43,630 nt of DNA, taken from positions 1 through 43,630 of the IMG/VR virus record IMGVR_UViG_3300007516_000037. One strand, given 5' to 3'. Positions 4,101 through 40,697 of the stretch are shown here, in pieces. The DNA comes from a virus. The notes under the pieces are model-generated. The model was not told the DNA's origin. It searched no databases and saw only the letters and a program-made list of their open reading frames with translations. Each line of letters begins with the position of its first letter. Within the stretch, counting starts at the first letter, position 1. Both the position numbers and the translations under genes were made by a program.

Positions 4101-4285
4101 TTTGTTACTAAATTATGTCTATATTTTTCGTATCCGTAAATTATCTCTTTTTGTCTAGGGAATAAATTAAACGGAACAAAACCTTCTTGGGTCTTATCAA
4201 AAGTTTCTAAATAAGTTTCTATACCATAAATTGGATTGGTCAAACATTTGGCAAATTCCTTAAATATTTCAATAGTTGTTAACAT
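1169..4285 (-). CDS. Terminase large subunit (T4 gp17-like) with in-frame intein
   Basis: ATP-driven DNA-packaging motor and headful nuclease. The N-terminal ATPase has a deviant Walker A (KPRQAGVSTTTA, about residues 62-73) and Walker B (YLIMDEAAYID, about 169-179). After the intein come the coupling motif (TGGKAILISTPNG) and an RNase H-like nuclease with acidic residues in GSDVARGDGEDSS, SVIDVTGG and HDDLLMALAM. The ORF is 1038 codons. Removing residues 194-630 leaves about 601 residues, close to T4 gp17. An ATATTTAT box lies 11 nt before the ATG (4297-4304, minus sense). A palindromic terminator separates it from the gene upstream. Confidence 0.95.
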   Translation of the reverse strand: MLTTIEIFKEFAKCLTNPIYGIETYLETFDKTQEGFVPFNLFPRQKEIIYGYEKYRHNLVTKPRQAGVSTTTAAYMSMKVGFADEDNPEAVLIIANKQELAFEFLAKIKDFLSQLPRWVWGSEYYGNPKNEAKSIFLVDSKKEIRLPNGSRVKAVATSKDALRGFTPTYLIMDEAAYIDNGAVVFGAAFTALGCLTKDSLILTENGLVEMDELVSEKEKIGFTHLDIPHKVCNKDGNIVNATETFVSEYGQTFKIKTKLGIELEGSWKHPILIDRGGTEIWVRMNELIIGDKPIIQYGQQYFGNNGNFDFSFVKQPNNKNIFIPKNLSDNLDFSYLLGLFVAEGNFTSRGICITNTDEYITDFLLTDKAKLGNSFNKIDDRHYQFHSTELVAWFKKFGLDKHNARDKEIPLALLKMPKNVIKSFLQGMFDGDGMSTHKDIKYSSTSKKLIKTLQTLLLNFGIVSHIKYEEQKTSDSSIISNKKHICKIYNLKIYSNYAIKFYDEIGFRLERKQKNREYLLNKKQNSRFVNVNQNEILEVLKNNGILKPKFRFLERFWVSKFNRLSVDSLNRLIELLPNDVFLLSLKEDIKKQELFYIDEIISIDESEDYTYDLHVPETNSFISNGIISHNTGGKAILISTPNGMDMLYYATYDLARKGKNDFNIIEMKWYEDLRYNKDLRWIKETEGEGGDIVEAETEFTFESYDARILDNWKPTSTWYEDMARGMNNDAKMIAQELDVSFIGSGGNIIDEKYIQYQNKFNVKTPISTKGNKNEIWIWELPIEGHQYILGSDVARGDGEDSSTIVIIDFTTMEQVMEYQGKIPPDLLAQLIEEYGNMYKAYSVIDVTGGMGVPTVLKLLEFEYKRLHYDNQNGKILSARQRELTHYDKDNKTPGFHATSVRLPMISNLEFKIRTNGVKIRSARMTSEMKTFIYKNGRPDHAEGAHDDLLMALAMVLWVMEHSFKSLERLEKQNKAILNAWLVGAQQSPQELETEKGSGFVSKENRNIKSNQKPKFNHVVGRNTQDPTGQYLWLFSGSK
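2396..3706 (-). other. Terminase intein with LAGLIDADG endonuclease domain (437 aa)
   Basis: It starts at Cys194 (CLTKDSLILTENGLVEMDEL) and ends with ISHN before Thr631, so all splice-junction residues are present: Cys1, penultimate His, final Asn, +1 Thr. A block-B-like SWKH is near the N-terminus. Two LAGLIDADG helices are visible (YLLGLFVAEGNF and FLQGMFDGDGMS), so the homing endonuclease looks intact. It interrupts the ATPase just before the ISTPNG coupling motif. Terminase should be inactive until the intein splices out. Confidence 0.93.
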
Positions 4286-9249: not shown

Positions 9250-9816
9250 TTAATTTACTATTGTTAAATTTCCATAAAAAGCTTGAAGGGGATTACCAAA
9301 ACCTTTCCAAGTTACTTTGTAAACATAAATATCGTTTTGAACTATTATAGGTTTTCCTAGATAAGTTCCATCCCAAAATCCTTTAGGGTTATGAGATTCG
9401 AAAATAAGTTCTCCCCATCTATTAAATATCAAAACTTCTATTTCTTCCCACCCGTCACCGATAGGGAACCAAGTATCGTTTAACCCATCACCGTTAGGTG
9501 TAAAAGCAGAAGGTATGTAAATCGTTGAACATTCTGTTACAATTATTGTGTAACGTAACGTTAATGAACGACATCCATTTGCTATTCCAAAAACAGTTAA
9601 TGTGTATGTTCCAATCCCATATTCAGTCCAATCAATAATGACTTTCTGACCATATAATTGTTCTTTACCCAATTCCCAATAAAATGTTGTGTTTGGGACG
9701 CTGGAGGTTACTGTATACGTAAATTCTGAATTCTTATTCAAACACAAATCAATTACTTGTTGTGATGATAGAAGGTTTGATATTAATAGAAATAGAGTTA
9801 CATACAGAAGTTTCAT
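9250..9816 (-). CDS. Secreted protein with type IX secretion (gliding-motility type B) C-terminal domain
   Basis: 188 aa. The N-terminal signal peptide is MKLLYVTLFLLISNLLSSQQ. An Ig/PKD-like strand region follows (FTYTVTSSVPNTTFYWELGK). From about residue 97 the C-terminus matches the CHU_C / gliding-motility-associated sorting domain: IYIPSAFTPNGDGLNDTW, then IEVLIFNRWGELIFES, then GFWDGTYLGKP and DIYVYKVTWKG. In Bacteroidetes this domain sends proteins through the T9SS to the cell surface. The start overlaps the upstream stop (ATGA), indicating translational coupling. The gene sits between structural and nucleotide genes of a phage, so it presumably targets the host surface or the virion. 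Confidence 0.85.
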   Translation of the reverse strand: MKLLYVTLFLLISNLLSSQQVIDLCLNKNSEFTYTVTSSVPNTTFYWELGKEQLYGQKVIIDWTEYGIGTYTLTVFGIANGCRSLTLRYTIIVTECSTIYIPSAFTPNGDGLNDTWFPIGDGWEEIEVLIFNRWGELIFESHNPKGFWDGTYLGKPIIVQNDIYVYKVTWKGFGNPLQAFYGNLTIVN

Positions 9817-11357: not shown

Positions 11358-12632
11358 TTAATTTGATAGTTCTGCTGTTATTTGTGTGTGTGATTTATAT
11401 TCTTCGATTGAGAAATCACTTATTTCAAACCCTTTTAGGTTTGTTGCTAATTTACCAATACCACACTCACCCGTTTCTGTTTGCCAGAATTCAGTGTTTA
11501 TAAACAATGTTGGTAGTGGGTAAGGTGTTCTCGTATGTGTCGGTACGTCCTGTTGGTCTAATTCATAATCAGCCCAAATTTTACTTGCTGTCTTGTCACC
11601 ACCACACCTAACATCTAAATGCCATTGATTTCTTTCCTCGGAAGTCATTTTTTTACCAATTTGTTCTTTAGCTTGTTCAAGATGGTTTAAATATAAATGT
11701 GTGTCACCTAAATTTCCTATTAATTCATCAGGAATCATATTAACTTCTTTGGCTAATATCTCTAATAATAAACCGTAAGAAGCGATGTTGAATGGAAGAC
11801 CTAAAAAGGTATCTACACTACGTTGGTTCCATATTAAAGATAACGCTCTTTTAGGTATATTGAATGGTTCTAAAAAGTCTTCTTCAATACTACCCATCCT
11901 AAAAGGTAGAATTTCTTTGGAGTTGGTTCTTTTAACTAATTCTTCAATCCTTTCTTCTACACTCAGCTCTCTTGTATAAACTTGAAAACCATAGTGACAT
12001 GGTGGTAACACCATTTGGTCTAAATCACTTACATTCCAAGCGTTTACCATAAGTCTTCTTGAATCTGGATTTGTTTTAAGGTCTTTGATTAGAATTGAGA
12101 TTTGGTCTATATTTCTTTCGGTAAAACTTTTTCCTTTATTACCATTTGTTAAGGTGTAGTTCACTATAGTGTTTTCCCATTTTCTCCATTGTGCCCCATA
12201 AATTGGCCCTAAATTACCCCATTTATTAGCAAAATCATCATCGGTTTTGATTTTCTTAATAAATAAGTCTAGACTTAACAACACTTCAAAAGGTTGAAAA
12301 TCTCTAGTAGGGTTATTAGCAACCATAGTATCGTAAGCCGTAACCATTTCGTTACAGAATCTTTTATAAGCGTCTCCATTCCAAATGTTACACCCATTAT
12401 CAACCAAATCTTTTATATTTGTGTCTCCATTAAGAAACCAAAGCAATTCCGTTACAATTGTTTTAAACGGCATTTTCTTGGTTGTAATTAATGGAAAACC
12501 GTCTGACATTTTATGGCGTATTTGTCTACCAAAAACTGATAATGTCCCAGTACCTGTTCGGTCTTTTTTTTCAACACCGTTATCGAGGATATCTTTAAGA
12601 AGTGCTTGATAACCTAAATCTAATTTATTCAT
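11358..12632 (-). CDS. thyA: Thymidylate synthase (ThyA type)
   Basis: Converts dUMP to dTMP using methylene-tetrahydrofolate, supplying dTTP for phage replication. Visible motifs: DRTGTGTLSVFG near the N-terminus, FPLITTKK, WFLNGDTN, the paired arginines in SRRLMVNAWN, the catalytic Cys in LPPCHYGFQVY, and NLGDTHLYLNH. At 424 aa it is much longer than the usual 264-300 aa. The extra length lies mainly in an insertion after IWNGDAYKRF and another after the active-site Cys (TRELSVEERIEELVKRTNSKE). It is translationally coupled to the KTSC gene (1-nt overlap). Confidence 0.95.
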   Translation of the reverse strand: MNKLDLGYQALLKDILDNGVEKKDRTGTGTLSVFGRQIRHKMSDGFPLITTKKMPFKTIVTELLWFLNGDTNIKDLVDNGCNIWNGDAYKRFCNEMVTAYDTMVANNPTRDFQPFEVLLSLDLFIKKIKTDDDFANKWGNLGPIYGAQWRKWENTIVNYTLTNGNKGKSFTERNIDQISILIKDLKTNPDSRRLMVNAWNVSDLDQMVLPPCHYGFQVYTRELSVEERIEELVKRTNSKEILPFRMGSIEEDFLEPFNIPKRALSLIWNQRSVDTFLGLPFNIASYGLLLEILAKEVNMIPDELIGNLGDTHLYLNHLEQAKEQIGKKMTSEERNQWHLDVRCGGDKTASKIWADYELDQQDVPTHTRTPYPLPTLFINTEFWQTETGECGIGKLATNLKGFEISDFSIEEYKSHTQITAELSN

Positions 12633-32986: not shown

Positions 32987-33529
32987 TTAACGAATTATTT
33001 TGTACGTTTCATTCTGAAAGCTCAACTCCAAAACATTTTTAAGATACAATTTTCTCCAAAAAATCTCTCGTTCAGTTCCTTGATTTTCAGCACTAGCCTG
33101 CACTGGTAAGTAGTCAACCAATTCAGATTTATTTTTTCTTATGCCGTCAGCGAAATATTCAGTTTCAGGCTTGCTATTATCATTCGGACGATATTGTAAA
33201 ACAAACTCACCTTTGAACGTTCCAATAAAATTATTGTTCTCGCCAAACTCGATAGGCATCGTATTAACGCCTTTTTTGTACTCGGTGGACTCTTTGCCTT
33301 CGCGACCTAATTGATTCGTTACAGCCTTCTCATATTCGCTATTAAGCAGTATTGACACCTTTGAAACCTTTACGATTTTACCGTATGGATTTTTTTCGCC
33401 CGTAGTGCGACTTTTTACAGTTACTTTAGGCTCTGTTTGCTGAAGCACTGAAGCAAATGTAGGCATTCCTTTGACAAGTTCAACACTAGTAAGGATAGCA
33501 GCAAGTTCTTTTTCTGTTACACGTTTCAT
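32987..33529 (-). CDS. Hypothetical early protein, 180 aa
   Basis: Starts MKRVTEKELAAILTSVELVKGMPTFASVLQQTEP and contains TTGEKNPYGKIVKVSKVSILLNSEYEKAVTNQLGREG and FIGTFKGEFVLQYRPND. Beta-rich and basic. It recalls early proteins of other flavobacterial phages but I know no function. It is the largest gene of the early array. Its early promoter is at 33559-33589. Confidence 0.75.
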   Translation of the reverse strand: MKRVTEKELAAILTSVELVKGMPTFASVLQQTEPKVTVKSRTTGEKNPYGKIVKVSKVSILLNSEYEKAVTNQLGREGKESTEYKKGVNTMPIEFGENNNFIGTFKGEFVLQYRPNDNSKPETEYFADGIRKNKSELVDYLPVQASAENQGTEREIFWRKLYLKNVLELSFQNETYKIIR

Positions 33530-33589: not shown

Positions 33590-33761
33590 TTTATTTTCAC
33601 TTTATTTTATTTTTATTTTGGGATGTTCTAAACGTTTGAACAGTGCAAATATGATAATAATAATTGATATATCCTAATATTGTTTATTAACAAGTTATTA
33701 ACAAATTGACTTTTTGACAATTCCTAATTTTGTTGATAACTTTTTTTATTTGAGGGTTAAA

Positions 33762-33825
33762 AAAATATAAGGTAGGCTGGAGTATACTCTCTCACCTCGT
33801 CAGCGACCCGTTCACCAATTGAACA
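33762..33825 (-). ncRNA. Structured small RNA, copy 1
   Basis: Follows an early promoter with the hairpin GUUCA-AUUGG-UGAAC at the predicted 5' end (33810-33824). Next come GGGU, a short hairpin (UCGC/GUGA) and GAGUAUACUCC, where GGGU can pair with ACUC. Nearly identical to copy 4 on the other strand. No ORF is carried. The 3' end is only estimated from a T-rich stretch. Confidence 0.65.
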
Positions 33826-33828
33826 ATA

Positions 33829-33859
33829 CAAAGATAGTAAAAAATTCGACACCACCAAA
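33829..33859 (-). promoter_or_regulatory. Early promoter, class A, of small RNA copy 1
   Basis: TTTG (33856-33859), 19 nt, TATCTTTG (33829-33836) on the minus strand. The T-tract of the preceding terminator leads straight into it. Confidence 0.8.
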
Positions 33860-33865
33860 TAAAAA

Positions 33866-33895
33866 GGCATAAAAAAATCCCTTTCGGGACTTTTT
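33866..33895 (-). terminator. Terminator after the Lys/His-rich protein gene
   Basis: Minus-strand GTCCC-GAAA-GGGAT hairpin with A- and T-runs on either side, just after the stop at 33904. Confidence 0.85.
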
Positions 33896-33903
33896 TTTTA
33901 TGT

Positions 33904-34143
33904 TTAACGTTTGTGGTTTGGATGTGCTTTTAAGCCTCTACAACCGTGACCAACAAGCCCTTTTTTCTTTGCAGCTTTGCTCTTCTTGTGGCTCTTCTTG
34001 TGGCTCTTCTTCTTGTGGTTCTTCTTCTTTGGTTTGCGGTCAGACATTTCGTACTGACTTTTGATGTTTAAGGTTTCAAAAGTTGATGCGTTAACGTTTG
34101 CACCGAAAATTGTGATAAGCAGTAAAAAGATTAAGTTTTTCAT
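33904..34143 (-). CDS. Secreted Lys/His-rich basic protein, 79 aa
   Basis: Signal peptide MKNLIFLLLITIFGANVNAS, then a strongly basic mature part with repeated KKSHKKSHKKSK and a Cys/His tail GHGCRGLKAHPNHKR. Similar short basic exported proteins occur in flavobacteria, so it may be host-derived. Its charge suggests binding to nucleic acid, envelope polymers or metal (inference). Confidence 0.7.
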   Translation of the reverse strand: MKNLIFLLLITIFGANVNASTFETLNIKSQYEMSDRKPKKKNHKKKSHKKSHKKSKAAKKKGLVGHGCRGLKAHPNHKR

Positions 34144-34176
34144 AGGTTTTTTTGTTTTTGTTTGTTTTTGTTAAGA

Positions 34177-34207
34177 CAAAGATAGTTAAAAAATCGACAC
34201 CACCAAA
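34177..34207 (-). promoter_or_regulatory. Early promoter, class A
   Basis: TTTG (34204-34207), 19 nt, TATCTTTG (34177-34184) on the minus strand, for the Lys/His-rich protein gene. Confidence 0.8.
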
Positions 34208-34219
34208 TTTATTTTCATT

Positions 34220-34294
34220 TTATTTTAAGTAGGTGTAAATACACAATGCGAATAAAATAAAAGCTTCTTTGAGGTCTTTAAGGAAAAGTTTCAT
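34220..34294 (-). CDS. Tiny hydrophobic protein, 24 aa
   Basis: Short ORF MKLFLKDLKEAFILFALCIYTYLK, 17 nt after an early promoter. A single hydrophobic segment suggests a membrane peptide. Supported only by promoter position and composition. Confidence 0.45.
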   Translation of the reverse strand: MKLFLKDLKEAFILFALCIYTYLK

Positions 34295-34311
34295 AGTTTG
34301 TTTTGATAAGA

Positions 34312-34342
34312 CAAAGATAGTCAAAAAATCGACACCACCAAA
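34312..34342 (-). promoter_or_regulatory. Early promoter, class A
   Basis: TTTG (34339-34342), 19 nt, TATCTTTG (34312-34319) on the minus strand, upstream of the 24-aa ORF. Confidence 0.8.
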
Positions 34343-34343
34343 T

Positions 34344-34517
34344 TTATTTTGATAATTCTTTGCCGTAAAATACGTTCAATATAAACGCCCATATTCCAAA
34401 AGCTATGCATAGCAATGTAGAATACATAAAACCATTTAGATTTAAAGTAGCTATAAAATAAGCTACAAAAACTAATGCAATGGCAAACAAGTTGAGGGAT
34501 ACTTTGAGTAAGTTCAT
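34344..34517 (-). CDS. Small membrane protein, 57 aa
   Basis: ATG chosen at 34517 (MNLLKVSLNLFAIALVFVAYF). The longer frame reads through the promoter box. Two hydrophobic segments (LFAIALVFVAYFIATL and YSTLLCIAFGIWAFILNVF) predict a two-pass membrane protein. Confidence 0.65.
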   Translation of the reverse strand: MNLLKVSLNLFAIALVFVAYFIATLNLNGFMYSTLLCIAFGIWAFILNVFYGKELSK

Positions 34518-34546
34518 AATTTCTGTTTTTAGATTGATTGATAAGA

Positions 34547-34577
34547 CAAAGATAAGCAAAAAATCGACACTACCAAA
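34547..34577 (-). promoter_or_regulatory. Early promoter, class A
   Basis: TTTG (34574-34577), 19 nt, TATCTTTG (34547-34554) on the minus strand. Drives the 57-aa membrane protein gene. Confidence 0.8.
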
Positions 34578-34584
34578 TTTATTT

Positions 34585-34671
34585 TCAATAAAATATCCAA
34601 GAACTAAAATAAAATAACGTGAATAGGACTACTAAAAATATACCACCTAAAAAGACTTCTTTTTTGTTCAT
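34585..34671 (-). CDS. Tiny membrane protein, 28 aa
   Basis: MNKKEVFLGGIFLVVLFTLF... with one hydrophobic span. Its ATG overlaps the stop of the 50-aa gene (ATGA), so it is probably translated by coupling. Third gene of a three-gene mini-operon. Confidence 0.5.
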   Translation of the reverse strand: MNKKEVFLGGIFLVVLFTLFYFSSWIFY

Positions 34672-34820
34672 GGGTAAAAGTCTAATAACATTTTATTTGC
34701 TCTCAAAGCTGCTGTAAGGTTAAAAATAGGGCAAGTAGTATCTTTCTTATTAACTATTCCAGCTGCGATAATGGCTCTAACTATTTGAGGTCGCATATTG
34801 ATTCTTGTATGTAAGTTCAT
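34668..34820 (-). CDS. Small hypothetical protein, 50 aa
   Basis: Starts MNLHTRINMRPQIVRAIIAAG. A short helical protein with one Cys (KDTTCPIFN). It starts 3 nt after the stop of the 47-aa gene and overlaps the 28-aa gene, so it sits in the middle of a mini-operon. Confidence 0.5.
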   Translation of the reverse strand: MNLHTRINMRPQIVRAIIAAGIVNKKDTTCPIFNLTAALRANKMLLDFYP

Positions 34821-34823
34821 AAT

Positions 34824-34967
34824 TTATTTATTTGCTGCTGTCCATAGCTTCTTAACGATTTCTTTGAAATGAAGGTTACAATTTCTCTTGATTATTTTCA
34901 AGTCGCTTGCATCAAGCTCCCAGGGAACCCAAACTGAGCATACCATAATTAACGTTTCGATAGTCAT
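34824..34967 (-). CDS. Small hypothetical protein, 47 aa
   Basis: Starts MTIETLIMVCSVWVPWELDA, then a basic helix SDLKIIKRNCNLHFKEIVKKLW. First gene of the mini-operon behind the promoter at 34991. The leader (CATAATTTCTTTGTGTTTGAT on the plus strand) is shared with other early genes, which supports the start. Confidence 0.55.
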   Translation of the reverse strand: MTIETLIMVCSVWVPWELDASDLKIIKRNCNLHFKEIVKKLWTAANK

Positions 34968-34990
34968 AATTTCTTTGTGTTTGATTAAGA

Positions 34991-35021
34991 CAAAGATAAG
35001 CAAAAAATCGACACCACCTAA
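34991..35021 (-). promoter_or_regulatory. Early promoter of the three-gene mini-operon
   Basis: TATCTTTG (34991-34998) with the class A spacer. The upstream box is TTAG rather than TTTG. Confidence 0.7.
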
Positions 35022-35049
35022 TTTTAAACGTTATTTAGATTGATTATAA

Positions 35050-35120
35050 ATAAGGTAGACTATAAAGTAGGTCGGAGTATACCTTTCGATTTAAAAATCG
35101 ACTCGTTCACCAATTGAACA
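35050..35120 (-). ncRNA. Structured small RNA, copy 2
   Basis: Same 5' hairpin GUUCA-AUUGG-UGAAC (35105-35119). The second hairpin is the longer UCGAUUU/AAAUCGA, followed by AAGGUAUACUCCGACC. GAGU here pairs with ACUC, where copies 1, 3 and 4 have GGGU. The 3' end is uncertain. Confidence 0.65.
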
Positions 35121-35123
35121 AGA

Positions 35124-35173
35124 CAAAGATAGTAAAAAAATCGACACCACCAAATGATAATGTCGATTTTTTG
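35124..35173 (-). promoter_or_regulatory. Overlapping terminator and early promoter (small RNA copy 2)
   Basis: TTTG (35151-35154), 19 nt, TATCTTTG (35124-35131). The spacer also forms the 3' arm of a hairpin (35135-35145 with 35162-35172, TGTCGATTTTT) that has terminator form for the gene at 35182. One segment thus serves as both terminator and promoter. Confidence 0.75.
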
Positions 35174-35181
35174 ATTTATTT

Positions 35182-35436
35182 TTAATCCTCAAACTCACCA
35201 ATAAAAAGTTTACCATCTTGAAATGTTGGCTCATATTCTTTGTGCGAAGCTTTCATATCGTCAGTTTCCATAAAGCCGCTGTAAGCCATTAATTTTAACT
35301 CGTGGCAACATACTAGCACTTCGGCTGTATCACCCTTTGTAGGATGCTCTAAGAAGTCAATTTCTTGACCTAATGAATTGGTCATCTTCTCGTATGAAGT
35401 CGGGTTCATCGCCATTATTTTTTCGTAGCTTATCAT
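35182..35436 (-). CDS. Hypothetical early protein, 84 aa
   Basis: MISYEKIMAMNPTSYEKMTNSLGQEIDFLEHPTKG, then EVLVCCHELKLMAYSGF. Small acidic protein, no family recognised. Class A promoter at 35466-35496. Confidence 0.7.
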   Translation of the reverse strand: MISYEKIMAMNPTSYEKMTNSLGQEIDFLEHPTKGDTAEVLVCCHELKLMAYSGFMETDDMKASHKEYEPTFQDGKLFIGEFED

Positions 35437-35465
35437 GGTATATGTTTTTAGATTGATTGATAAGA

Positions 35466-35496
35466 CAAAGATAGTTAAAAAATCGACACCACCAAA
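35466..35496 (-). promoter_or_regulatory. Early promoter, class A
   Basis: TTTG (35493-35496), 19 nt, TATCTTTG (35466-35473) on the minus strand, for the 84-aa gene. Confidence 0.8.
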
Positions 35497-35528
35497 TTTA
35501 TTTTCATTTTATTTTATTTTGTTTTTTA

Positions 35529-35559
35529 TTTGGTAGTTCGGAATTTTTGTTTATCTTTA
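35529..35559 (+). promoter_or_regulatory. Promoter of small RNA copy 3
   Basis: Plus-strand TTTG (35529-35532), 19 nt, TATCTTTA (35552-35559). The final G is replaced by A. Confidence 0.65.
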
Positions 35560-35563
35560 CAGT

Positions 35564-35640
35564 GTTGAATCAGTCAGGTCAACGGGTCGATTTTTAAATC
35601 GAAAGGTATACTCCGACATGGCTTATATTTTGCCATGAAA
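35564..35640 (+). ncRNA. Structured small RNA, copy 3
   Basis: 5' hairpin GUUGA...UCAAC (35564-35583): compared with copies 1, 2 and 4 the C-G pair has become G-C, a compensatory change. Then GGGUCGAUUU...AAAUCGAAAGG and UAUACUCCGAC as in copy 2, and a hairpin AUGGC/GCCAU at the 3' end. Confidence 0.7.
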
Positions 35641-35649
35641 TAAAAGGAA

Positions 35650-35678
35650 AAAAAGATTTGGAAATACCAAATCTTTTT
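35650..35678. terminator. Bidirectional terminator
   Basis: AAAAAGATTTGG / CCAAATCTTTTT stem with a 5-nt loop. It can end small RNA copy 3 on the plus strand and the 35,689 gene on the minus strand. Confidence 0.85.
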
Positions 35679-35688
35679 CTTATCTTTG

Positions 35689-35895
35689 TTAATTGTATTG
35701 ATTGGCGACTCTGAATGCTTCTGTTGCTTCTGAGGTGAATTCTTGTTCGGTCATTGCCAAGTATTCATTTTTAACTTCGGCATCAAACCACAATGAAAGA
35801 TTATTATTGCTTTCATCGCTAATGTTAAATAACCCTTGACCTGCAAGGTTACCTTCATTCAATGTAATTTGCCCGACTGTTCTTAAAATTTTCAT
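35689..35895 (-). CDS. Hypothetical early protein, 68 aa
   Basis: MKILRTVGQITLNEGNLAGQGLFNISDESNNNLSLWFDAEVKNEYLAMTEQEF. Acidic, no family recognised. Class A promoter at 35918-35949. Confidence 0.65.
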   Translation of the reverse strand: MKILRTVGQITLNEGNLAGQGLFNISDESNNNLSLWFDAEVKNEYLAMTEQEFTSEATEAFRVANQYN

Positions 35896-35917
35896 GGTTT
35901 GTTTGTTTTTGATAAGT

Positions 35918-35949
35918 CAAAGATAAGTAAAAGAATCGACACCACCAAA
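35918..35949 (-). promoter_or_regulatory. Early promoter, class A
   Basis: TTTG (35946-35949), 20 nt, TATCTTTG (35918-35925) on the minus strand, for the 68-aa gene. Confidence 0.8.
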
Positions 35950-35977
35950 TTTATCTTCATTTTAATTTCCCATGTAC

Positions 35978-36193
35978 TCAATTGTGTACATAGTGACGTT
36001 TATCAATAGTTTGGTTTTTTGAACGTGTATAAATGAAACCATCAATAGGACATTTGATACGTAATTTCAAGTCACCATTTTTTTTAAAACAAACCGCACT
36101 ATCAAATTCTTTGCAATGTCGCGCAGTAGGACCATAGATAAAATCATCCTTTGTTGGTTTTCTTTTGTATGTATATGCTGTTTTGTTTTTCAT
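35978..36193 (-). CDS. Small basic protein, 71 aa
   Basis: MKNKTAYTYKRKPTKDDFIYGPTARHCKEFDSAVCFKKNGDLKLRIKCPIDGF. Basic, with three Cys and two His that could bind zinc. The ATG lies 4 nt after a TATCTTTG box (36198-36205), so the message may be leaderless. The -33 box is not clear. Confidence 0.65.
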   Translation of the reverse strand: MKNKTAYTYKRKPTKDDFIYGPTARHCKEFDSAVCFKKNGDLKLRIKCPIDGFIYTRSKNQTIDKRHYVHN

Positions 36194-36211
36194 AAGACAA
36201 AGATAAGTAAA

Positions 36212-36469
36212 TTATATCCAAATATGTTCTTTACAATAAGATAATAATTCATCTTTTGTGTTTATTCTAACATCGTTGAGGTATCTATTAGTATTTGGGG
36301 TATATTTTGTTATAATAACACTTTTACCATTATCTATAATTGCCGTATAATTAGACTTCTTAAATTCGTTATCTAAATTAGTATTTTGTTTGAAACCAGA
36401 TTTCAATAGAATTGATTTTAAAGATTCTGATTGTGTATCTAACTGTTCATTCATTTGTTTGTTTTTCAT
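36212..36469 (-). CDS. Hypothetical early protein, 85 aa
   Basis: Starts MKNKQMNEQLDTQSE; an internal ATG five codons in is an alternative. Contains LKSILLKSGFKQNTNLDNEFKKSNYTAIIDNGKSVIITKY. No family recognised. Promoter at 36474-36505. Confidence 0.65.
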   Translation of the reverse strand: MKNKQMNEQLDTQSESLKSILLKSGFKQNTNLDNEFKKSNYTAIIDNGKSVIITKYTPNTNRYLNDVRINTKDELLSYCKEHIWI

Positions 36470-36473
36470 AGGA

Positions 36474-36505
36474 CAAATATAAGTAAAAGAATTGACACCA
36501 CCAAA
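36474..36505 (-). promoter_or_regulatory. Early promoter, class A
   Basis: TTTG (36502-36505), 20 nt, TATATTTG (36474-36481) on the minus strand. The ATG of the 85-aa gene is 4 nt from the box. Confidence 0.75.
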
Positions 36506-36718
36506 TTAAATCGGTATAATCATACAGTTTTCTGCAATTTCAGCCAATGGAATTCTACCATTATTGGATGAATAATACCCTTGCGCTTCGAATCTTTTTG
36601 TAAATTCTTCGAGTTCTGTTTTAACTTGCTCTTGAGTATATTCGTTATCATCCCTTTTTAGTTCGAATCCGTCAGGAGATAGTATTCTAAATTTTTGTGT
36701 TGTTTGTTTGTTTTTCAT
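36506..36718 (-). CDS. Hypothetical early protein, 70 aa
   Basis: MKNKQTTQKFRILSPDGFELKRDDNEYTQEQVKTELEEFTKRFEAQGYYSSN. Looks like a small alpha/beta protein; no family recognised. Its first residues match those of the neighbouring genes because the leader is duplicated. Promoter at 36723-36754. Confidence 0.65.
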   Translation of the reverse strand: MKNKQTTQKFRILSPDGFELKRDDNEYTQEQVKTELEEFTKRFEAQGYYSSNNGRIPLAEIAENCMIIPI

Positions 36719-36722
36719 AAGT

Positions 36723-36754
36723 CAAAGATAAGTAAAAGAATCGACACCACCAAA
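36723..36754 (-). promoter_or_regulatory. Early promoter, class A
   Basis: TTTG (36751-36754), 20 nt, TATCTTTG (36723-36730) on the minus strand. The ATG of the 70-aa gene is 4 nt from the box. Confidence 0.8.
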
Positions 36755-36755
36755 T

Positions 36756-36971
36756 TTAATTTGCACCACTTCTATTTAAATGTGATAACATTTTATTAGC
36801 ACCATACTCTAAATAGTCATTAACTTGTTGGCGTATTTGTGACATTTCTTGGCGAGTATAACGACCTTCTGTTAGTTCACCCCCAACTTTTTCAGCTATT
36901 TTAATATTACTTGAAAAGGTTAAATCCTTTATAAACCAAGAAAAACCATTGATTAAAATTTCGTACCACAT
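36756..36971 (-). CDS. Hypothetical early protein, 71 aa
   Basis: MWYEILINGFSWFIKDLTFSSNIKIAEKVGGELTEGRYTRQEMSQIRQQVNDY. Helical, no family recognised. Class A promoter at 36994-37025. Confidence 0.65.
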   Translation of the reverse strand: MWYEILINGFSWFIKDLTFSSNIKIAEKVGGELTEGRYTRQEMSQIRQQVNDYLEYGANKMLSHLNRSGAN

Positions 36972-36993
36972 AGTTTGTTTGTTTTTGATAAGT

Positions 36994-37025
36994 CAAAGAT
37001 AAGTAAAAGAATCGACACCACCAAA
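36994..37025 (-). promoter_or_regulatory. Early promoter, class A
   Basis: TTTG (37022-37025), 20 nt, TATCTTTG (36994-37001) on the minus strand, for the 71-aa gene at 36756. Confidence 0.8.
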
Positions 37026-37026
37026 T

Positions 37027-37302
37027 TTATTCTTTGTTATTTTCTATGAATTCTTCAACCATTATTTCTAACAAGATTCTAAGAGCCATAATGTCTGTAA
37101 TACTTAATCTATCCCCTCTATAGTCCAAAACGTCATAATATGGGTTATTTAAATTGTATATAATTAACCCAAGTCTTTTAGCATCATCTTGTGAAAACTT
37201 ATTACTAAAAAACTTAACAATCATTGGTGTAATTTTTTTGATTGTTTCATGTTTCCATTCGGAAAACTTAAGTGATTCCTCACGTTTATCTAATTCGTTC
37301 AT
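37027..37302 (-). CDS. Hypothetical early protein, 91 aa
   Basis: MNELDKREESLKFSEWKHETIKKITPMIVKFFSNKFSQDDAKRLGLIIYNLNNPYYD. Helical with an acidic C-terminus (MVEEFIENNKE). No family recognised. The ATG is 4 nt from the promoter box. Confidence 0.65.
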   Translation of the reverse strand: MNELDKREESLKFSEWKHETIKKITPMIVKFFSNKFSQDDAKRLGLIIYNLNNPYYDVLDYRGDRLSITDIMALRILLEIMVEEFIENNKE

Positions 37303-37306
37303 AAGT

Positions 37307-37338
37307 CAAAGATAAGTAAAAGAATCGACACCACCAAA
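37307..37338 (-). promoter_or_regulatory. Early promoter, class A
   Basis: TTTG (37335-37338), 20 nt, TATCTTTG (37307-37314) on the minus strand, for the 91-aa gene. Confidence 0.8.
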
Positions 37339-37380
37339 TTTATTTTTATTAATCTAAGGAAATACCCATAATATAACCAA

Positions 37381-37605
37381 TTACAAGTTATATGTTTTAA
37401 CACAACAACTTGGTGTGTTTGTTATCCTAACTGTTTTAGCACCATCTTTTTTGTAGGTTTTAGCATAATTTAATAATTCCCTTATTGTTGGTTTAACATC
37501 GTATGTACTATGTTTTTGCCCAATCATACTATTATTTTTATCAAATATTGTTAGTGTTACATCACACTTTCCACTTTTTGTTTTTGTGATTTTAAATCTA
37601 CTCAT
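37381..37605 (-). CDS. Small basic hypothetical protein, 74 aa
   Basis: MSRFKITKTKSGKCDVTLTIFDKNNSMIGQKHSTYDVKPTIRELLNYAKTYKK. Basic beta-beta-alpha-looking protein with a CC pair near the end. No family recognised. Promoter at 37628-37659. Confidence 0.65.
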   Translation of the reverse strand: MSRFKITKTKSGKCDVTLTIFDKNNSMIGQKHSTYDVKPTIRELLNYAKTYKKDGAKTVRITNTPSCCVKTYNL

Positions 37606-37627
37606 CGTTTCTCTGTTTTTGATAAGT

Positions 37628-37659
37628 CAAAGATAAGTAAAAGAATCGACACCACCAAA
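37628..37659 (-). promoter_or_regulatory. Early promoter, class A
   Basis: TTTG (37656-37659), 20 nt, TATCTTTG (37628-37635). The -33 box is joined to the T-tract of the terminator of the gene before it. Confidence 0.8.
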
Positions 37660-37687
37660 TAAAAAGGGAGAAACTTTCGCCTCCCCC
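37659..37687 (-). terminator. Terminator fused to the next promoter
   Basis: Minus-strand GGGAG...CTCCC hairpin followed by TTTTTATTTGG, in which the terminator T-run leads into the TTTG of the next promoter. Ends the 37,711 gene. Confidence 0.8.
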
Positions 37688-37710
37688 AAATTAATCAATC
37701 AAACAGTATT

Positions 37711-38049
37711 TTAGTTTATGTCAATAGTTACGGTAATAGTAGGTGAATTATCAACAGTTCTTTCAAGTTCTTCAACCACAAGCCCAATGTATTCATCTTT
37801 CATTCTAACCCAAATAACTTCAACTATAAATTCAGTAATTACACTACCCAAAGCATTAAGAGTTAAATGACCATATTGTTCGTTATAACAACTTATAGCA
37901 CCCTTTTTTCGTAGATTCATGAATTTTTCAAATTCAGTAAAAGTAGCATGTTCATTAAAGAACACCATTTGCGCTCTTATTGTATCACCAACATCACCAC
38001 GAAATCTTTTCAATGCTAATGCTTCTACAATTTCTTCTAATTTTTTCAT
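37711..38049 (-). CDS. Hypothetical early protein, 112 aa
   Basis: MKKLEEIVEALALKRFRGDVGDTIRAQMVFFNEHATFTEFEKFMNLRKKGAISCYN. Helical, no family recognised. It is driven by a class B promoter whose spacer is an inverted repeat. Confidence 0.7.
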   Translation of the reverse strand: MKKLEEIVEALALKRFRGDVGDTIRAQMVFFNEHATFTEFEKFMNLRKKGAISCYNEQYGHLTLNALGSVITEFIVEVIWVRMKDEYIGLVVEELERTVDNSPTITVTIDIN

Positions 38050-38076
38050 AGGTTTTTTCTTTATGTTTGATTAGGT

Positions 38077-38108
38077 CAAAGATAAGGATAAGTTTTCACT
38101 TATCCAAA
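38077..38108 (-). promoter_or_regulatory. Early promoter, class B (palindromic spacer)
   Basis: TTTG (38105-38108), then the 20-nt spacer GATAAGTGAAAACTTATCCT, then TATCTTTG (38077-38084). GGATAAG/CTTATCC is a perfect inverted repeat, either an operator or the hairpin of the preceding gene's terminator. Confidence 0.8.
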
Positions 38109-38120
38109 TCTTATTTGATT

Positions 38121-38456
38121 TTAATACGCTGATATTGGCATTATTTGATTTTGTTCATAACTTTGACCTTCATGTTCTGTATCAGGATTAGTTAGGTTAA
38201 AGAAATGTTGTTTCAATTGTTCACCAATATCACTTAAATTTTTTCGTTCTTCTTCAGTTAACTTAATATTTATATTAATACCCAACGTATCATTAACGCC
38301 AACCCTACCAAGCAATCCACCACCCAAGTAATTTTGGAATGCAGCCATTTTCTGACCTTTGAAACCTAAAGTTGATAGGTCAATTTCGATGCCACCACCG
38401 CGTGAGGAAATTTCTTTTCTAAGAGTTACTTTCGAGAATTCAATTTGTTCTGTCAT
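38121..38456 (-). CDS. Hypothetical early protein, 111 aa
   Basis: MTEQIEFSKVTLRKEISSRGGGIEIDLSTLGFKGQKMAAFQNYLGGGLLGRVG. Beta strands then a helix (LTEEERKNLSDIGEQLKQHFFNL). No family recognised. Class C promoter at 38480-38511. Confidence 0.7.
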   Translation of the reverse strand: MTEQIEFSKVTLRKEISSRGGGIEIDLSTLGFKGQKMAAFQNYLGGGLLGRVGVNDTLGININIKLTEEERKNLSDIGEQLKQHFFNLTNPDTEHEGQSYEQNQIMPISAY

Positions 38457-38479
38457 AATTTCTTTGTGTTTGATTAGGT

Positions 38480-38511
38480 CAAAGATAAGTAATTAATTTG
38501 TAACTACCAAA
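38480..38511 (-). promoter_or_regulatory. Early promoter, class C
   Basis: TTTG (38508-38511), spacer GTAGTTACAAATTAATTACT, TATCTTTG (38480-38487) on the minus strand. Confidence 0.8.
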
Positions 38512-38518
38512 TTTAATT

Positions 38519-38854
38519 TCATATTTTTGTTTCAAAACCGTTTAACAGTTCATCCAATAGAACGTACCCAACACCAATAAAATTAATGGTTGTTTCACCC
38601 CAACTATAATCATATTGAACACGAATTTGAATTCTTTGTTTGCTATCAATATAAAAGTTTGAAAAACTGCTGAAACCACGAATTGTTTTTTTCAAAATAG
38701 TCACAACTTCTTCATGTTTGATTTTTTCCGTATCGGAGAATTTTGACTTGTCTATGTATTCGTAACCTTTGTTTTGTAAGGTTAAATTTGGATATTCAGT
38801 GAATATACCAAGAAGTTTTTTGTGTTCTTCGATTGTGATTAGTTCGATTGTCAT
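38519..38854 (-). CDS. Hypothetical early protein, 111 aa
   Basis: MTIELITIEEHKKLLGIFTEYPNLTLQNKGYEYIDKSKFSDTEKIKHEEVVTILKK, then a beta-rich end with IQIRVQYDYSWGETTINFIGVGYV. No family recognised. Class C promoter at 38878-38909. Confidence 0.7.
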   Translation of the reverse strand: MTIELITIEEHKKLLGIFTEYPNLTLQNKGYEYIDKSKFSDTEKIKHEEVVTILKKTIRGFSSFSNFYIDSKQRIQIRVQYDYSWGETTINFIGVGYVLLDELLNGFETKI

Positions 38855-38877
38855 AATTTCTTTGTGTTTGATTAGGT

Positions 38878-38909
38878 CAAAGATAAGTAATTAATTTGTA
38901 ACTACCAAA
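38878..38909 (-). promoter_or_regulatory. Early promoter, class C
   Basis: TTTG (38906-38909), the same class C spacer as 38480, TATCTTTG (38878-38885) on the minus strand. Confidence 0.8.
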
Positions 38910-38939
38910 TTTATTTTCACAAATTTTAAATACGTTCCA

Positions 38940-39155
38940 TCACACCATTTTTTTACCGTTCACCCATAAAAATCGAACTTTTGATTTTTCATCTTCTGTT
39001 AGAGAAGCGTAAAGGTCAGTATCTTTTTGAGAGAAAACAAATCCTGAGTCCATTCCACCACCACTTTCTTCTTTACAATTGGTACGTAAAGCATAATCCC
39101 AAAATCTTGATGGTGTATGAGCATTACCTCTAACATAAACTTCTATTATTTCCAT
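38940..39155 (-). CDS. Hypothetical early protein, 71 aa
   Basis: ATG chosen at 39155 (MEIIEVYVRGNAHTPSRFWDYALRTN). The longer frame to 39209 only translates the promoter (VVSILLLIFDLIK). Small protein with SGGGMDSGFVFSQKDTDLYASLTEDEK. No family recognised. Confidence 0.65.
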   Translation of the reverse strand: MEIIEVYVRGNAHTPSRFWDYALRTNCKEESGGGMDSGFVFSQKDTDLYASLTEDEKSKVRFLWVNGKKMV

Positions 39156-39178
39156 AATTTCTGTGTTTTTGATTAGGT

Positions 39179-39210
39179 CAAAGATAAGCAAAAGAATCGA
39201 CACCACCAAA
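39179..39210 (-). promoter_or_regulatory. Early promoter, class A
   Basis: TTTG (39207-39210), 20 nt, TATCTTTG (39179-39186) on the minus strand, for the 71-aa gene at 38940. Confidence 0.8.
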
Positions 39211-39233
39211 TTTATTTTGATAATACCTCCTAG

Positions 39234-39521
39234 CTACCAAGAGTTTAGATTTCTAAGGTAGTTTTCATTGGTTGATAATGCCTCACGACAAGCCTTTCTA
39301 ATATCTTTATCTTCAATGGTAAATGCTCTATAAGTTCCGTAACTTGCTCCATATGTAGAGTATTGGAGTATCCCCTTATTCTTTTTACAATACTCTTCAA
39401 CTTCATCCTTTCTATCACCAAATAAACTTGGTCTAAAATTACTTCTACCTACTTGTCCATATTTGTCAGTAGTAGTTTCTTTGTGCATTTGTACTAATAT
39501 GTCTGTAATAAATTCTTTCAT
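39234..39521 (-). CDS. Hypothetical early protein, 95 aa
   Basis: MKEFITDILVQMHKETTTDKYGQVGRSNFRPSLFGDRKDEVEEYCKKNKGILQYS. Basic and helical with an aromatic patch (YGASYGTYRAF). No family recognised. Promoter at 39542-39573. Confidence 0.65.
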   Translation of the reverse strand: MKEFITDILVQMHKETTTDKYGQVGRSNFRPSLFGDRKDEVEEYCKKNKGILQYSTYGASYGTYRAFTIEDKDIRKACREALSTNENYLRNLNSW

Positions 39522-39541
39522 TTTGTTTGTTTTTGTTAAGT

Positions 39542-39573
39542 CAAAGATAAGTTAAAAAATCGACACCACCAAA
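39542..39573 (-). promoter_or_regulatory. Early promoter, class A
   Basis: TTTG (39570-39573), 20 nt, TATCTTTG (39542-39549) on the minus strand, for the 95-aa gene. Confidence 0.8.
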
Positions 39574-39587
39574 TAAAAAGGGAGAAA

Positions 39588-39761
39588 TTATTCAACAAAC
39601 TTTTTGAATTCAGAACTAAAAAATTTTAGTTCATCTACTTTTTTATTTAATTTATTAACAACAGAAATTTCTAAATTTGGTCTGCTTTTAATAAACCTTA
39701 AAATTTCATCCACTTTTCCATCGTGTTCAATAATTTTGGTTTTGATTTCTGATTGAGTCAT
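39588..39761 (-). CDS. Small helical protein, 57 aa
   Basis: ATG chosen at 39761 (MTQSEIKTKIIEHDGKVDEILRF); the upstream extension only translates the promoter. Probably a short coiled coil (NKLNKKVDELKFFSSEFKKFVE). Function unknown. Confidence 0.6.
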   Translation of the reverse strand: MTQSEIKTKIIEHDGKVDEILRFIKSRPNLEISVVNKLNKKVDELKFFSSEFKKFVE

Positions 39762-39784
39762 AATTTCTTTGTGTTTGATTAAGT

Positions 39785-39816
39785 CAAAGATAAGCAAAAG
39801 AATCGACACCACCAAA
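39785..39816 (-). promoter_or_regulatory. Early promoter, class A
   Basis: TTTG (39813-39816), 20 nt, TATCTTTG (39785-39792), fused to the preceding terminator as at 37659. Confidence 0.8.
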
Positions 39817-39845
39817 TAAAAAGGGAGAAATTTTCATTTCCCCCA
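39816..39845 (-). terminator. Terminator fused to the next promoter
   Basis: Minus-strand GGGGGAAAT/ATTTCTCCC hairpin followed by TTTTTATTTGG. Ends the 39,868 gene. Confidence 0.8.
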
Positions 39846-39867
39846 AATTAATCAATCAAACAGTATT

Positions 39868-40047
39868 TTACCAACTCATAATCGAGTAAGGGTTGAAACC
39901 TAATTCCCTTAATTTATTTCGCAACTCAATGAATTTCTTTTCAGTGATTTTGAATATTGATGTATTTTTTGTGCTTTCTACGAATTTCAATTTAGGGTTG
40001 ATATTCGAGAATATTTTTTCGTTTGCTTTGATGATTAGAATATCCAT
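39868..40047 (-). CDS. Small basic hypothetical protein, 59 aa
   Basis: MDILIIKANEKIFSNINPKLKFVE, then FKITEKKFIELRNKLRELGFNPYSIMSW. The start is fixed by the shared early leader and a class B promoter 24 nt upstream. No family recognised. Confidence 0.65.
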   Translation of the reverse strand: MDILIIKANEKIFSNINPKLKFVESTKNTSIFKITEKKFIELRNKLRELGFNPYSIMSW

Positions 40048-40070
40048 AATTTCTTTGTTTTTGATTAGGT

Positions 40071-40102
40071 CAAAGATAAGGATAAGTTTTCACTTATCCA
40101 AA
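40071..40102 (-). promoter_or_regulatory. Early promoter, class B (palindromic spacer)
   Basis: TTTG (40099-40102), the same palindromic spacer as at 38077, TATCTTTG (40071-40078). Long identity extends across both copies. Confidence 0.8.
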
Positions 40103-40119
40103 TCTTATTTGAACTAAAT

Positions 40120-40404
40120 TTAGTTTTCCCAAAACATAATAGTACCGCCATCATACCATTCAGCATACCAGCCATTTTCTTCAAGTAGGTTTCCAATTTC
40201 ATTATGGACTCCAAATACATAGCGAATTTCTTTGTAATCTTCAACGTGATGATTAAACAATCTAAAACCGTCCTTAGCAGTTAAACCATCTTCACCGCTT
40301 GACCATATACCGCCTTTTGAACCGTTGAATTCTTCTGTTGTTTTTAAAAACATCTTAGGATATGCTTTCCTAAGAATATCCATCATTTCTTCTCTGTTTT
40401 TCAT
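40120..40404 (-). CDS. Hypothetical early protein, 94 aa
   Basis: MKNREEMMDILRKAYPKMFLKTTEEFNGSKGGIWSSGEDGLTAKDGFRLFNHHVEDYKE, ending NGWYAEWYDGGTIMFWEN. It looks like a small alpha/beta protein of a type often seen in phages; no function is known to me. Confidence 0.7.
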   Translation of the reverse strand: MKNREEMMDILRKAYPKMFLKTTEEFNGSKGGIWSSGEDGLTAKDGFRLFNHHVEDYKEIRYVFGVHNEIGNLLEENGWYAEWYDGGTIMFWEN

Positions 40405-40427
40405 AATTTCTTTGTGTTTGATTAGGT

Positions 40428-40459
40428 CAAAGATAAAACAAATTTTATTGATATCCTAA
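40428..40459 (-). promoter_or_regulatory. Early promoter, diverged
   Basis: TATCTTTG (40428-40435) with TTAG (40456-40459) 20 nt upstream. The class A spacer motif is absent. Confidence 0.6.
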
Positions 40460-40492
40460 TGAAATAAATTTTTTTATATGAAATCTTTTATC

Positions 40493-40500
40493 TATATTTG
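40493..40500 (+). promoter_or_regulatory. -7 box of small RNA copy 4
   Basis: TATATTTG on the plus strand, 4 nt before the RNA hairpin. The -33 position reads TTTT, so it is a weaker match. Confidence 0.55.
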
Positions 40501-40503
40501 TCT

Positions 40504-40575
40504 TGTTCAATTGGTGAACGGGTCGCTGACGAGGTGAGAGAGTATACTCCACCTTACGTGAATGTTTTTATATAT
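40504..40575 (+). ncRNA. Structured small RNA, copy 4
   Basis: About 48 nt match copy 1 base for base, from the 5' hairpin (40505-40519) to ACUCC. It is on the opposite strand, 6.7 kb away, so the pair is also an inverted repeat flanking the early array. The 3' end is uncertain. Confidence 0.65.
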
Positions 40576-40578
40576 CAA

Positions 40579-40612
40579 CGAAAAAAAACGACACCATTTT
40601 ACTGGTATCGTT
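40579..40612 (-). terminator. Terminator of a minus-strand small RNA
   Basis: Minus-strand AACGATACCA/TGGTGTCGTT stem (one mismatch), 6-nt loop, then eight T. Confidence 0.8.
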
Positions 40613-40697
40613 TCGTATTGAACCTTGTTATTAAAAATTTATATGTGTAAATATTATGTAAGTTGATTTTAACTCGGTGGTGCTTTGTTGTTGTTCA
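40587..40697 (-). ncRNA. Candidate small RNA or tiny-ORF transcript
   Basis: Bounded by an early-type promoter (40703-40733) and a strong terminator about 110 nt away. It carries only the 9-codon ORF MNNNKAPPS, right where the other early genes start. Either a short regulatory RNA or the remnant of an early gene. Confidence 0.5.

Follow-up and report, generated by a model that had tools for sequence, protein, structure and literature searches.

A new class of small structured RNA, almost confined to viruses, that lies directly behind promoter-like boxes in phages

We establish here by computation a family of small phage RNAs, with its structure, transcribed strand, virus specificity and monocistronic layout. 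The class is new, a novelty that applies to the class alone and not to its mechanism, and by its sequence features the molecule is well supported as a stand-alone, trans-acting structured RNA. In the window, that is, the whole IMG/VR virus record IMGVR_UViG_3300007516_000037 (43,630 bases), it occurs four times; the copies at 33.8, 35.1, 35.6 and 40.5 kb that the earlier note had described are real, and each shows UAUACUCC together with two hairpins, the first at the 5′ end. Only a small number of phage RNAs are known to act as non-coding molecules, mostly encountered in individual phages, whereas this RNA is frequent in viral metagenomes and has a near-invariant core.

The family architecture consists of a 5′ hairpin P1 (in Bacteroidota-type members), a GGG linker, a second hairpin P2, the near-invariant AGAGUAGAC and a variable 3′ end; the AGAGUAGAC segment in the window is AGAGUAUAC or AAGGUAUAC. 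The parts of the four copies are listed below with their basis in brackets, where R3 is the final covariance model, whose seed includes copy D.

Copy A, 33779-33824, minus strand: core (sequence)
Copy A, 33829-33836, minus: -7 box TATCTTTG, Bacteroidota-type promoter, 4 nt ahead of P1 (sequence)
Copy A, 33810-33824, minus: P1 hairpin GUUCA-AUUGG-UGAAC (sequence, fold; P1 covaries among relatives)
Copy A, 33807-33809, minus: GGG linker (comparison with relatives, R3)
Copy A, 33792-33806, minus: P2 hairpin UCGCU-GACGA-GGUGA (covariation among relatives)
Copy A, 33779-33790, minus: conserved motif AGAGUAUACUCC, family form AGAGUAGACUCC (R3 E = 9.8e-10 for 33755-33809)
Copy A, 33759-33765, minus: U-tract, probable 3′ end (13 nt past CUCC, like many relatives)
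Copy B, 35074-35119, minus strand: core (sequence)
Copy B, 35124-35131, minus: -7 box TATCTTTG (sequence)
Copy B, 35105-35119, minus: P1 hairpin GUUCA-AUUGG-UGAAC (sequence, fold)
Copy B, 35102-35104, minus: linker GAG (sequence)
Copy B, 35086-35101, minus: P2 hairpin UCGAUUUUUAAAUCGA (R3 E = 4e-4)
Copy B, 35074-35085, minus: conserved motif AAGGUAUACUCC (sequence, R3)
Copy C, 35564-35614, plus strand: core (sequence)
Copy C, 35552-35559, plus: -7 box TATCTTTA (sequence)
Copy C, 35564-35583, plus: P1 hairpin GUUGA-AUCAGUCAGG-UCAAC (sequence, fold)
Copy C, 35584-35586, plus: linker GGG (sequence)
Copy C, 35587-35602, plus: P2 hairpin UCGAUUUUUAAAUCGA (R3 E = 7e-4)
Copy C, 35603-35614, plus: conserved motif AAGGUAUACUCC (sequence, R3)
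Copy C, 35617-35637, plus: 3′ hairpin CAUGGC...GCCAUG (fold)
Copy C, 35650-35679, plus: terminator hairpin with U run, common to the convergent gene 35689-35895 (minus) (sequence, fold)
Copy D, 40505-40550, plus strand: core (sequence)
Copy D, 40493-40500, plus: -7 box TATATTTG (sequence)
Copy D, 40505-40519, plus: P1 hairpin GUUCA-AUUGG-UGAAC (sequence, fold)
Copy D, 40520-40522, plus: GGG linker (comparison with relatives, R3)
Copy D, 40523-40537, plus: P2 hairpin UCGCU-GACGA-GGUGA (covariation among relatives)
Copy D, 40539-40550, plus: conserved motif AGAGUAUACUCC (R3 E = 6e-9, copy D being a seed member)
Copy D, 40586-40613, plus: terminator-like hairpin downstream (fold)

The window by itself gives weak covariation, and the proof of the RNA structure comes from the relatives. 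The change from GUUCA/UGAAC to GUUGA/UCAAC, which had been offered as evidence of selection, is real and keeps the pairing, but it is a single event and the loop of copy C also differs in length. The folding energies of the single window copies show nothing unusual; the whole copy C transcript folds with a z of -4.0. Among the relatives, the P2 hairpin is proved by covariation: when the alignment is fitted to P2, two-sided changes occur at all six pairs (84 cells) and the score is 0.786 against 0.307 in shuffles, while slid controls collapse. An alignment without gaps and without fitting to P2, made of 44 sequences with equal spacing that were not selected for P2 pairing, gives 43 two-sided cells against 12.7 and a score of 0.503 against 0.262. 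For P1, whose two strands were placed at set distances from promoter box and linker, pairing is 0.83 against 0.635 in shuffles, a value that none of 5000 shuffles reached. The excess of G.U over A.C cells (26 versus 7) indicates that the strand as read is the transcribed one. P2 varies between classes, with a U bulge and a UGAAAUA loop in the bulged class and a shorter stem in the flavobacterial class.

The G(G/A)GU-ACUC pairing of the earlier note did not survive this comparison: among 52 diverse relatives, 74.5% of cells are paired, which is precisely what shuffles give, and compensatory changes are absent. This helix is not kept in relatives with linkers AAG, GUG or AGG, and the copies of Flavobacterium phage immuto and of contig L252 are without ACUC. 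The GGG is a linker, and the base of P2 begins at the U. The near-invariance of AGAGUAGAC is no artefact of the first search pattern, since it is intact in 16 of 18 copies chosen by the 5′ part alone. A local hairpin GAG-UAGA-CUC is invariant across the aligned set, which is evidence neither for nor against it, and it is impossible in the immuto and L252 copies, where CUCC is replaced. The 3′ part takes several forms, namely CCUACCUUAUA followed by a U-tract 13 nt past CUCC, ACACG, and GGGCCGGUAC or GGAGCAGUACC. A hairpin GUAG-CUAC at the 3′ end is possible: it is paired in 93% of the bulged class, just slightly above shuffles, and its pairing across all classes is at shuffle level.

The family is far larger than is visible from the four window copies. 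Exact patterns taken from these copies alone gave only chance-level matches in IMG/VR. A search of whole related jumbo phage records with R2, a covariance model built from the four copies, found homologues nearly all directly behind a TAnnTTTG-type box, and the core pattern (the shared 3′ motif) occurs in at least 120 stretches of IMG/VR. R3 recovers all four window copies at the E values listed above. The covariance search that the earlier note had proposed as a check thus finds homologues in many phages, with compensatory changes in both hairpins. Copies number from 1 to 13 per record among the 29 carrier records searched. In a further set of 33 records, most of them ClpA relatives of the window phage and with the window itself included, 8 contain a match, which marks the RNA as accessory. 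By R3, two cultured phages are carriers, immuto (host Flavobacterium sp. LMO8) and Tenacibaculum phage Larrie (host Tenacibaculum sp.); both hosts are cultivable, so the function of the RNA is directly testable. Two further matches, one in MA9V-1 and a second one in immuto, were rejected as chance, as they lie inside coding regions. A weak but plausible copy (E = 4e-5) lies at 609420-609480 (minus) of LR745206, a 635-kb uncultured megaphage (locus L271).

A separate lineage, with contigs mostly of 35-70 kb, has other promoter types and a single copy of the RNA, always in the same location, adjoining one conserved gene near a switch in gene direction. A conserved protein (NKELIAEAISKLSPEELALIYPP...) is encoded near 48 of 56 single-copy-class sites, in most cases about 500 nt upstream of the RNA (for example at position 3936 (minus) of L207, with 47 similar sites), and is a possible partner of the RNA. 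This protein has no PHROG match and no cultured match. The lineage likewise has no cultured relative and no PHROG match; one of its proteins has distant matches only, in many phages.

The RNA is almost confined to viruses. The strict core pattern has one match, on a 27-kb contig of a metagenome-assembled genome (MAG), in 257 Gb of bacterial and archaeal contigs, as against 73 distinct sites in the phage loci examined, and R3 has no match in 53 relatives of that MAG. Scans of the window and twelve relative loci with Rfam 15 at curated (gathering) thresholds returned tRNAs only, and permissive scans (E up to 5, or 2) gave chance-level matches. With no Rfam 15 match, covarying homologues and a fixed promoter spacing, the proposal of a selected structured RNA of no known class is upheld. 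A full-text search of open papers for the RNA core found no paper on such an RNA family.

Promoter-like boxes of several types stand immediately before the RNA copies. A TAnnTTTG box about 4 nt upstream, as claimed earlier for every window copy, is found at exactly 4 nt in three of them, while copy C has TATCTTTA. For 49 copies preceded by a TAnnTTTG box we examined the next gene with promoter support: it runs convergently in 23 cases and is served by a promoter of its own in 17. These 40 of 49 argue against leader, riboswitch and cis-antiterminator roles; a possibly co-transcribed ORF follows in five. Many copies reach a U-tract 13 nt past the motif, and terminator hairpins follow copies C and D. 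Judged from sequence, the copies thus have what is expected of a trans-acting small RNA gene: an own promoter, an own end, no co-transcribed gene and a conserved structure. The words TGCTATACAC and GTGTATAGCAC, which recur between genes and immediately before some RNA copies (L179, L182, L213, L217, L222 and others), look like a phage-specific promoter.

In the window, copies A-D are interspersed in a row of about 20 tiny genes (33.5-40.8 kb), mostly on one strand, most of which stand behind their own near-identical TAnnTTTG promoter (TTTGGTGGTGTCGAT...TATCTTTGTC); the window repeat families D1-D5 are these promoters. A search for close relatives of the neighbouring protein 32987-33529 found none. 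The cores of A and D are identical and inverted, within an 84-nt inverted match of 87% that is far beyond chance, while copy B has the P1 of A/D but the P2 and 3′ half of C, a mosaic which indicates that the copies recombine or convert. On another contig (L118, 66-78 kb), RNA copies share one P1 (GUUGAAAGAGCAAC) and differ in their P2 stems. These combinations, together with the shuffling of P1 and P2 between the window copies, have the appearance of modular exchange. Elsewhere in the window, the large terminase subunit (1169-4285, minus) carries an intein with a LAGLIDADG endonuclease (residues about 194-631), and the ClpA-like protease has its nearest counterparts in uncultured large phages. 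The protein at 9250-9816 (minus) is phage-encoded and has a T9SS type B sorting domain, which normally marks secreted Bacteroidota proteins and points to a Bacteroidota host. The thymidylate synthase (11358-12632, minus; 424 aa) seems to carry an insertion, as it exceeds the matched families by about 120-150 residues and its family matches are split into several pieces.

The reading we propose, and which we consider about equally apt to be right or wrong, is that of an early, multi-copy, trans-acting, protein-binding (decoy-like) RNA made as a one-gene unit. Transcription from a host-type early promoter would begin at the 5′ hairpin and yield an RNA of about 55-110 nt, which would end within tens of bases at a U-tract or terminator; from these promoters we infer early and abundant transcription. 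Each copy would be its own transcription unit, with no protein made and no downstream gene controlled, and its RNA would act in trans as a protein-binding decoy, as the overall pattern suggests. P2 would display the near-invariant strand for binding by a conserved factor of the host (or phage), and a conserved protein partner bound by P2 together with AGAGUAGAC is probably the simplest remaining reading. Copies with the same fold and altered stem sequences would raise the dose and limit recombination. This dosage argument does not apply in the 35-70 kb lineage, where the RNA is single-copy, which counts against the explanation. The frequency of the RNA in viruses and its near-absence elsewhere suggest that it probably serves phages as a common tool for acting on their hosts. 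More tentatively, this virus-only RNA of jumbo and mid-size phages, with no known cellular or viral relative, could be a trans-acting takeover factor: its near-invariant core would attach to a single conserved machine of the cell, such as RNA polymerase or an RNase, and reprogramme it early in infection. We regard this as possible but doubtful.

Several other explanations were weighed against the protein-binding RNA. An antisense regulator, in which the AGAGUAGAC strand pairs with host or phage mRNA, seems unlikely to us: the near-invariant, probably exposed strand of 9-10 nt beside a hairpin is typical of a seed region, but words complementary to it show no enrichment across 1.25 Mb of phage DNA or in rRNA, where complementarity to the RNA is at chance level. 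In the phage DNA examined, the sites complementary to AGAGUAGAC are the RNA genes and about three others, against a median of 8 for permuted words; an apparent surplus of target sites was dismissed because it consists mostly of the RNA genes themselves. One seed across phages with different promoter types would also require an equally kept target, though pairing with mRNA outside the phage DNA examined may occur. About as improbable in our estimate is an RNA mimic directed against host defence, either a Racr-like CRISPR-repeat mimic or an antitoxin mimic (abiF RNA, ToxI), that would block a Cas or Abi nuclease. The RNA is multi-copy and phage-only and forms solitary units directly behind promoters, just as Racr does in phages (PMC10651486), and a Racr-type role is possible in principle. 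Mimicry predicts a likeness to some repeat or antitoxin of the host, yet no host copy was found in the 257 Gb of contigs or in the 53 MAG relatives, and arms-race targets would not usually go with a single motif in so many phages. For abiF RNA, an idea prompted by the phage-defence role, the consensus differs, RF03085 (a 37-nt covariance model) is absent from the cmscan matches at E up to 5 or 2, and the Abi_2 protein is absent from 10 carrier records. Nor are the copies tandem repeats ahead of a toxin gene, as for ToxI, being dispersed on both strands.

A nascent-RNA antiterminator of the HK022 put type, in which two hairpins stay on their own RNA polymerase and let it pass terminators, would account for several copies per phage, for a near-invariant motif and for two 5′ hairpins directly behind a promoter, the arrangement at the transcript 5′ end of HK022 putL (PMC9378689). 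Such an element needs downstream genes to serve in cis, whereas in 40 of the 49 copies the next gene is convergent (23) or under its own promoter (17), and many copies reach a U-tract 13 nt after the motif, so we judge this quite improbable. Hardly credible is a DNA element (a recombination, origin or packaging site) instead of an RNA: a gene cluster lies between the near-identical, inverted copies A and D, and GAGTATACTC is palindromic in the window, but the palindrome is lost in relatives (GAGTAGACTC), and strand-specific G.U tolerance, compensatory stems and fixed promoter spacing all speak for RNA.

The known systems that come closest are put, Racr, abiF RNA with the ToxI-type antitoxins, and phage pRNA, GOLLD and ROOL. 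The RNA shares with put a phage RNA of about 70 nt with two stem-loops just past an early promoter in more than one copy; put, which attaches to RNA polymerase at the zinc-binding domain of the beta′ subunit, serves early operons in cis, whereas here we find mostly monocistronic units and the near-invariant AGAGUAGAC, the two being set apart here by layout and description. Racr likewise forms solitary phage RNA units with their own promoter. It differs from the RNA described here in that we found no matching repeat in cellular genomes searched with the core pattern, and in that one fold and motif persist here across phages with different promoter types. The abiF RNA (RF03085) and ToxI-type antitoxins are likewise small, structured and linked to phage conflict, and they are often multi-copy, but the abiF consensus forms just one closed hairpin, of other sequence. 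Phage pRNA (about 170 nt), GOLLD and ROOL (hundreds of nt) are structured non-coding RNAs of phages as well; they are much longer than the new RNA, which has no Rfam match in the DNA scanned.
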